Assembly: GCA_945898095.1 (NCBI GenBank) | Contig: CAMDHE010000003.1 | Location: 1 to 64,000, forward strand | Source of the DNA: Roseateles toxinivorans | Lineage (GTDB): Bacteria > Pseudomonadota > Gammaproteobacteria > Burkholderiales > Burkholderiaceae_C | Direction of reading: 5' to 3' | DNA length: 64,000 nucleotides | Part shown: piece after piece, positions 35,307 through 37,367 of the stretch | How positions within the stretch are numbered: position 1 is the first letter of the stretch | How the letters are laid out: each line of letters starts with the position of its first letter | Made by a program: the position numbers and the translations under genes | Notes under the pieces: generated by a model | Databases searched by the model: none | What the model was told of the DNA's origin: nothing | What the model saw: only the letters and a program-made list of their open reading frames with translations

Positions 35307-36485
35307 ATGAATCTGCCTGGCCTGAATTTTCAACTTGGCGAAGAGGTCGACGCGCTGCGCGATGCAGTGCAACATTTTGCGCAGCAGGAGATCGCGCCGC
35401 GCGCGGCTGAAATCGACGCGAGCGACCAGTTTCCTATGGACTTGTGGCGCAAGATGGGCGAGCTCGGGGTGTTGGGCATCACCGTCGCTGAGGAATATGG
35501 GGGCGCCAATATGGGTTATCTGGCGCACATGATCGCGATGGAAGAAATCAGCCGCGCTTCGGCCTCGGTCGGCTTGTCTTATGGCGCTCATTCAAACCTC
35601 TGCGTCAACCAGCTCAAGCGCAATGGCAGCGAGGCGCAGAAGCAGAAATACCTGCCCAAGCTGATCAGCGGCGAGCATGTCGGTGCTTTGGCAATGAGCG
35701 AGCCGGGAGCTGGCTCGGATGTCATCAGCATGAAGCTGAAAGCCGAAGACAAGGGCGGTTATTACCTGCTCAATGGCAGCAAGATGTGGATCACCAACGG
35801 GCCTGACGCCGACACCTTGGTGGTCTATGCCAAGACCGAACCCGAGCTCGGAGCGCGCGGCGTGACTGCTTTCTTGATTGAAAAGGGCATGTCCGGTTTC
35901 AGCGTGGCGCAAAAACTGAACAAGCTCGGTATGCGCGGCTCGCATACCGGCGAGCTGGTGTTCAGCAATGTCGAAGTGCCGGCCGCCAACATCCTTGGCC
36001 ATTTGAACGGCGGCGCCAAGGTCTTGATGTCGGGGCTCGACTATGAGCGTGCAGTGCTGGCCGCAGGGCCGATCGGCATCATGCAGTCGGTGATGGACAA
36101 CGTCGTGCCTTATATCCACGACCGCAAGCAATTCGGTCGCAGCATCGGCGAGTTTCAGCTGATCCAGGGCAAGGTCGCCGACATGTACACGGTGCTGCAA
36201 GCCGGCCGGGCTTTTTGTTACACGGTCGGCAAGAACCTAGATTTGCTGGGCCTGGAACATGTGCGCCAGGTACGCAAGGATTGCGCCTCGGTGATTCTGT
36301 GGTGTGCCGAAAAAGCGACCTGGATGGCCGGCGAGGGCGTGCAGATCTTCGGCGGTAATGGCTATATCAACGACTACCCGCTAGGCCGCCTCTGGCGCGA
36401 CGCCAAACTCTATGAAATCGGGGCGGGCACCAGTGAAATCAGACGAATGTTGATTGGACGCGAGTTGTTTGCGGAAACGATGTGA
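35307..36485 (+). CDS. ivd: Isovaleryl-CoA dehydrogenase
   Basis: [84 protein letters not shown]-type C-terminus. Confidence 0.9.
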
Positions 36486-36640
36486 AGCAGGTCGTGAGCC
36501 TCGATTCGGTGAAGGCTCATGTCCGCCTTGCGGACGTGAAGGCGCAATGCGCCGGCCGCAGCCAAATCGGGGCGGGCACCAGTGAAATCCGGAGAATGCT
36601 GATTGGGCGTGAGTTGTTTGCGGAAACGATGTGAAGCAGG
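36415..36640 (+). repeat. Duplicated ivd 3' end (77 bp, 149-bp period) around a 72-bp spacer
   Basis: 36415-36491 repeated at 36564-36640 with 6 nucleotide differences, all synonymous in the ivd frame. Confidence 0.95.
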
Positions 36641-36686: not shown

Positions 36687-37367
36687 ATGACGATTGAACT
36701 TCAAGAGCTGCTGGACAGCAACAAGCAATGGGCCGACGAGACCGAGGTCCGCGAGCCGGGGTTCTTTTCGCGCCTGCTCACGCAGCAGACGCCGCAATAC
36801 CTCTGGATAGGCTGCGCCGACAGTCGGGTGCCGGCCAATGAGCTGGTGAACCTTTTACCGGGCGAGCTTTTTGTGCACCGCAATGTGGCCAATGTGGTTG
36901 TGCATTCGGACCTGAATTGCCTTTCGGTGATGCAATACGCGGTCGATGCCTTGCGGGTCAAGCACATCATCGTCGTCGGGCATTCGGGCTGCGGCGGCGT
37001 CAAGGCCGCTTTGCTCGATGTGCGAGTCGGGCTGGCGGACAACTGGCTGCGCCATGTGCAGGATGTGCGCAATCACCATCAGGAATGGCTGGATCAACTC
37101 GACCTGCAGCAGCGGGTCAATGCGCTGTGCGAGTTGAATGTGCTCGAGCAGGCCCGCAATGCCTGCCAGACGACGGTGGTCCAGGATGCCTGGGCGCGTG
37201 GCCAGGAGGTCGTCGTACATGGCTGGGTCTATGGGCTGCATAACGGCTTGCTGGAGGATCTGCAGATCACCGCCGCTGCGCCTGAACAGGTCAGCCCGGC
37301 ATTCCAGCGTGCTTTGCAAGCCGTCAAGCGGCGCTATGACGGCCAGCGCTTGAGCAGCCAGTCCTGA
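36687..37367 (+). CDS. can: Beta-class carbonic anhydrase
   Basis: WIGCADSRVPANELVNLLPGELFVHRNVANVV; VVGHSGCGGVKAAL. Confidence 0.93.
   Translation: MTIELQELLDSNKQWADETEVREPGFFSRLLTQQTPQYLWIGCADSRVPANELVNLLPGELFVHRNVANVVVHSDLNCLSVMQYAVDALRVKHIIVVGHSGCGGVKAALLDVRVGLADNWLRHVQDVRNHHQEWLDQLDLQQRVNALCELNVLEQARNACQTTVVQDAWARGQEVVVHGWVYGLHNGLLEDLQITAAAPEQVSPAFQRALQAVKRRYDGQRLSSQS

Follow-up and report, generated by a model that had tools for sequence, protein, structure and literature searches.

An echoed gene end in Roseateles toxinivorans belongs to a betaproteobacterial family of small non-coding, putatively mobile units

The window, a 64,000-nucleotide stretch of a Roseateles toxinivorans draft genome (contig CAMDHE010000003.1, positions 1 to 64,000), encodes on its plus strand an acyl-CoA dehydrogenase (35307–36485; open reading frame with Pfam Acyl-CoA_dh_N/M/1), for which the name isovaleryl-CoA dehydrogenase (ivd) given in a preliminary description is fair, and a carbonic anhydrase (36687–37367, plus strand; Pfam Pro_CA). 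The last 23 codons of the dehydrogenase gene, including TGA, and the adjoining AGCAGG (copy A, 36415–36491, plus strand) recurred as an untranslated second tail (copy B, 36564–36640, plus strand). A repeat search recovered the two tails as one family, 77 nt long, 92% identical and 149 bp apart from start to start. Their six differences, at 36441, 36443, 36444, 36450, 36458 and 36461, were all silent (AGA CGA/CGG AGA, TTG/CTG, GGA/GGG and CGC/CGT), and the stop codon and AGCAGG were kept in both copies. In a simulation, six random substitutions in 66 coding nucleotides were all silent with a probability of 1.8 × 10−4. The downstream echo with silent-only differences, as first described, was thus borne out (chance about 2 × 10−4), and a coding origin of both tails is supported.

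Copy A forms the left end of a 149-bp unit, whose left boundary (AAATC after GA) is as at the other target genes discussed below. The stop codon is followed by a linker (36486–36502, plus strand) that is unlike the post-stop sequence of copy B beyond its first 6 nt (after-stop identity 8/17), and then by E (36503–36567, plus strand), a conserved 65-nt core with an imperfect outer stem and two inner hairpins that was recognized by alignment and by a covariance model match (2.0 × 10−15). Hairpin 1 (36514–36539, plus strand; GGCTCATGTCCGC-CTT-GCGGACGTGA) has invariant flanks and a covarying upper stem, and hairpin 2 (36541–36553, plus strand) reads GGCGC-AAT-GCGCC. The first bases of the unit (X_A, 36414–36427, plus strand) are partly complementary (AATCG.GGC) to a segment at the left of E (X', 36496–36509, plus strand; reverse complement CCGAATCGAGGCTC); by the family statistic this is one of the weaker loci, X' scoring 6.5 against copy A and 7.0 against copy B. 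The earlier phrase 'only a 72-bp hairpin-rich spacer' is apt as a description of what separates the tails, but the spacer belongs to a unit of about 149 bp, made up of gene tail, linker and hairpin core, that has a large family.

Aligned copies of E had the ends GNTTCGGC...GCCRAANC, with outer arms TTTCGGC and GCCRAA. The stem GGCTCATGTC...GACGTGAAG was invariant and its upper pairs covaried; the second hairpin was variable in sequence. With a covariance model built from 23 copies, E was found in 77 of 201 genomes of the family and in 55 of 141 genera, reaching at least 25 copies per genome, and it was repeated within the window's own genome and genus. A pattern scan matched Acidovorax, Thiobacillus, Rubrivivax, Schlegelella, Methylibium, Rhodocyclaceae and others; the pattern alone also gives chance matches in unrelated phyla, which are told apart by the missing remainder of E. 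No E locus had a convincing Rfam match at E ≤ 1, the one weak overlap scoring 26 bits against a cut-off of 66. E lay in either orientation with respect to genes, at 5′ as well as 3′ ends, and within the gene of an RND efflux pump it was read through in frame (L063, 3245–6661, minus strand; open reading frame of 1139 codons). An in-frame E was also seen at the end of a CysH-like protein (L049), and the peptide encoded by E at these two loci reads ...SAQAHV..DVKA..GR.QN.... At a further set of loci (L110, L230, L232, L234, L235, L236, L238, L239, L242, L245, L250 and L254), representing many genera, a form of E that has a minimal CAACGGC-GAA-GCCGTTG arm and lacks a gene copy adjoined a conserved terminator-like sequence (AAAAAAGGCACGTCGAAA...GACGCGCCTT); these loci are apparently one orthologous site.

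Direct repeats flanking E exceeded the shuffled maximum in 81 of 144 distinct E loci, while nearly half of the E copies had no gene-end copy. The latter include most of those in genome G215 (L116, L199–L207, L211, L215), where at least 25 E copies were present, some as 61–73 bp tandems, and where the E family is perhaps active. Where gene-end copies were present, the right one (B) started where E ends and the left one (A) about 75–95 bp before E, giving units of 105–210 bp and a period of mostly 130–162 bp. The same point in the same gene recurred in many genera, at the 3′ ends of argF, ftsW, ivd, metK and cysH and at the 5′ ends of ruvC and a CobW-type GTPase gene; ttcA, glmS and xerC (3′) and folD and a biotin-dependent carboxylase gene (5′) were met once or a few times. 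The bias towards gene ends probably reflects survivorship, as a unit carrying 10–45 target codons restores a gene only near its end; elsewhere only in-frame units probably survive, as in the efflux pump gene. The window's own genome contained further units: a tandem at the 5′ end of ruvC (L002, G000:C127:3248), one at the 5′ end of folD (L290, G000:C31:28592) with two silent differences between its copies (CTC/CTG and GAC/GAT), and two with a variant E at the 3′ end of a branched-chain amino acid permease gene (L288, G000:C12:56972).

The silent bias seen in the window extended across the family. In 67 locus comparisons in the true frame, codon differences between copies A and B were silent in 212 cases and non-silent in 48, with ratios of 42:4 at argF, 26:2 at ftsW and 28:1 at ivd; cysH accounted for 15 of the non-silent differences and ruvC for 10, several of the latter at the junction with E. 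Frames were set by amino-acid motifs of identified genes and checked with NCBIfam, since framing by the longest open reading frame or by GC3 mis-framed many loci; the motifs lean towards conserved residues, so the silent to non-silent ratio is approximate. At the 31 loci with a single unit, identity between copies A and B was 83% as far as the stop codon and fell to 30%, close to chance, in the 20 nt beyond it, which indicates that copy A and the linker come from a different lineage than copy B. Wherever similarity did continue through the linker in the loci checked (L173, L187, L181, L253, L002, L030 and L123), a second or truncated E was present, marking tandem arrays. Arrays of whole units were found at L173, L043, L123, L187 and L181; by gene they comprised argF (three units, G022), xerC (two), the carboxylase gene (three, Schlegelella), glmS and ruvC (G000/G016). 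Two were head-to-tail triplets, with a period of 149 bp at the carboxylase 5′ end in Schlegelella koreensis (L123) and of 160 bp at the argF 3′ end in G022 (L173). Similar arrangements were present in the single-contig genomes G022, G137 and G146.

The match between the arm and its own target was a property of the family. X' scored on average 7.64 against the start of copy A at its own locus and 4.75 against the A starts of other loci, none of 200 permutations attaining the former value, and it paired better with its own A than with its own B (44:13). The best scores, 16–18, were obtained at argF (L204), ftsW (L196) and glmS (L181), and pairing was weak at some loci, the window locus among them. 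Because X' is complementary to X_A, a circularized or tandem unit would bring X', E and X_A together as one long imperfect palindrome.

Which of the two copies is native could be read directly at ruvC, which is polymorphic in the genus. Four genomes with an empty site (G003, G006, G008 and G014) had a native gene start (ATGAGAATTC) matching copy B, not A: the displaced B copies start with ATGAGAATT, in common with the empty-site genomes, and the in-gene A copies start with [AT]TGCGYATH. The native upstream sequence also follows B. This comparison covered genomes other than G000 and G016, in which the units are in tandem. At argF, codon identity at shared residues rose from 0.57–0.62 in the 16 codons before the unit to 0.91 inside copy A (ten genomes, several genera). 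Third-position identity was 0.95 in copy A and 0.73 in copy B, against about 0.73 in the gene body (0.67 with L155, which was set aside because its body alignment is out of frame). To judge from these identities, copy A at argF seems to have spread recently, and copy B to be the native one. A sharp step where the unit begins was present at argF, ambiguous at ftsW and absent at ruvC, and it is therefore evidence from one gene. Several A/B pairs had within-genome variants in common over part of their length, at ruvC away from the start codon, which implies an additional part for gene conversion or homologous crossover. The xerC gene body is continuous with copy B rather than A, leaving the carried end outside the gene; that end is thus not needed to restore xerC, and restoration cannot account for everything.

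The ivd locus itself was compared in relatives, as had been suggested, and an empty site was present in one of them (G013, 95% identical), where the dehydrogenase gene runs straight into the carbonic anhydrase gene. With this empty site and a silent rather than random divergence of the tails, neither of the outcomes named beforehand as refuting the first interpretation was observed. A second relative (G016, 96% identical) carried the same insertion in an independent assembly, over two contigs overlapping inside copy B. At 36441, 36444 and 36450, copy A of the window has the allele of the empty-site G013 and copy B that of the unit-bearing G016, whereas at 36476 and 36479 copy A has the G016 allele. 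A single crossover between the native and the unit-borne tail, inside the tail at about 36462–36475, may have placed a native block in copy A and a unit-borne block in copy B; a later conversion would then have altered the left copy in G016. From these alleles, it looks as though most of the incoming tail resides not in the gene but in the downstream echo of the window, which carries the G016 tail allele and then native downstream DNA. The order first envisaged, in which an incoming tail displaces the old end, was seen directly at ruvC, but does not fit ivd in the window. In two further genomes (G005 and G015; L017 and L015 between them), a variant hairpin (CTCATATCCGC..GCGGATGTGAG, ending GCAGCC) followed the ivd stop codon, and the final codons were briefly echoed (AGACGATGTGATG); this gene end seems to have undergone a separate event there.

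We consider it most probable, at roughly 0.57, that these are small non-coding mobile units of the form X_A, gene-end copy A, linker, X' and E, each carrying a gene end. By sequence comparison the family is widespread in Betaproteobacteria, and it is apparently undescribed. In this reading each unit sits at a short motif (roughly GA^AAAC) among the terminal or initial codons of a conserved gene, which is completed by copy A, and the displaced end B remains beyond E. That A and B differ almost only at silent positions would follow if both descend from functional genes, each of a different strain or species. The unit may move as a whole, presumably in the form of a small circle or a folded single strand and by a recombinase acting in trans; homologous exchange within the tail is a likely further route; movement, excision, insertion and the acting enzyme are here proposed from sequence patterns. 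A bolder version makes them protein-free homing units, structured as RNA or single-stranded DNA, that would be moved in trans by an E-recognizing recombinase to a target chosen by the arm, so that a recoded gene end spreads between species and insertion into essential genes is harmless; this we put forward tentatively and hold to be less likely than not.

The main rival dispenses with mobility of the unit. It supposes that E inserted rarely and that E-bearing alleles then spread by ordinary homologous recombination (natural transformation), crossovers within the short tail leaving a native end beside an imported one. The ivd copies do have the appearance of the two reciprocal outcomes of a single crossover near 36462–36475, the ruvC copies share genome-specific variants away from the start codon, and no enzyme was found; on the other hand, random crossovers in a 900-bp gene would not produce a conserved argF block that is abrupt at the left end of the unit in ten genomes, nor does homologous spread account for the same architecture, with X' complementary to its own start, at about a dozen genes, or for tandem arrays of whole units. 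We regard this explanation as somewhat unlikely, though stronger than those that follow. An assembly or binning artefact might come to mind, as the window is from a 209-contig draft and the G016 assembly breaks inside copy B, but the recurrence of the arrangement in independent assemblies, including single-contig genomes, makes this exceedingly improbable.

Two other readings are both quite improbable. A plain long target-site duplication of about 80 bp could have accompanied insertion of E, with selection keeping only the coding copy; it would explain the fairly constant period (mostly 130–162) and the position of B right at E. An untranslated B should, however, gain mostly non-silent changes, yet 212 of 260 were silent, and similarity through the linker was confined, in the loci checked, to those with a second or truncated E. 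A long target-site duplication was rejected on the loss of similarity at the stop codon (83% before, 30% after, 31 single-unit loci). Alternatively, E could be a functional RNA or regulatory element, such as a terminator or mRNA stabilizer, with copy B under selection. The strong hairpins in E and linker, the covarying upper stem of E, the murG ribosome-binding site carried by copy B at ftsW and the terminator-like sequence next to E in several genera are consistent with such a role; the lack of an Rfam match, the occurrence in both orientations, at either end of genes and, in the efflux pump gene, even in frame, the absence of E from close relatives and the lack of an evident role for B in argF and ivd argue against it.

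If the mobile-unit reading holds, a selfish sequence sits harmlessly in conserved, often essential genes (ftsW, glmS, metK, folD, ruvC and argF), as a natural counterpart of the 'recoded rescue' of gene drives, and the arm matching its own target suggests a retargetable system. Such units would also reveal an origin of synonymous tail swaps, a point of consequence when silent-site evolution is interpreted, and orphan gene-end echoes in draft genomes would be simply explained.

Searches for a mobilizing partner gave the following. The units, at 105–210 bp, hold no gene, and no longer version was present among the loci read; neither a recombinase nor a transposase nor a larger autonomous version was found. 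No convincing distant A copies were found for E copies lacking a near one. The argF unit was absent from the phage and plasmid records searched, and the plasmid matches to the ivd stretch include ordinary isovaleryl-CoA dehydrogenase genes. Y1_Tnp was present in 54 of 77 E-bearing against 76 of 124 other genomes (p 0.23), with no association at this level of presence per genome. Integron integrases were present in about half of the sampled family genomes; IntI occurred in 48 of 77 E-bearing and 51 of 124 other genomes (odds ratio 2.4, p 0.004, uncorrected for relatedness). The open-access literature searched contained no description of the units.

Among known systems, Rickettsia palindromic elements, REP, MITE and SMS sequences resemble the units in being short, structured, non-coding, interspersed and sometimes in frame in proteins; unlike them, the units carry a copy of the target gene end and a target-complementary arm and occupy the same sites across genera. 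An exact target duplication irrespective of coding, as in MITEs, was not found, identity being 30% after the stop codon and 83% before it (31 loci). GTAG- and CGTC-tagged REPs are palindromic and some are intragenic, the CGTC class having no known transposase (PMC3733652, whose text contains neither Acidovorax, Thiobacillus nor the word Betaproteobacteria). E differs from them in its 65-nt core of two hairpins, its extended outer stem and the gene-end copies beside it. Elements that integrate at a gene 3′ end and restore the gene, such as prophage e14 in icd, likewise bring in a synonymous gene end and leave the old one beyond the insert. At ruvC the insert supplies the gene end and the empty sites carry the displaced one, with xerC as an exception. 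Unlike e14-type elements, the units have no integrase or cargo, measure about 150 bp, use 5′ ends too and have many different target genes.

Integron cassettes also share features with the units. In cassettes, the junction completes the attC palindrome. They are, like the units, short, have first bases complementary to the left arm of a terminal palindrome that only the circle or tandem completes, and occur in tandem; the self-pairing of attC arms often extends beyond the 7-nt core to 9–11 nt (PMC2727003). Unlike cassettes, the units target a gene end with a gene-specific start, and E has no RYYYAAC...GTTRRRY core and no attI or integrase nearby. E as an attC site was ruled out by this core sequence, the attC sites of integrons in the same genomes being canonical and unlike E. 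Canonical attC sites lay only beside integrases (for example, G000:C27 and G137); the window's own genome has an integron integrase with canonical attC (L255, G000:C27). Every known kind tested thus departs from the units in at least one defining feature, and we place the unit in none of them: E alone would be one more small palindromic repeat, whereas the whole unit, with its carried gene end and self-matched arm, would stand apart.
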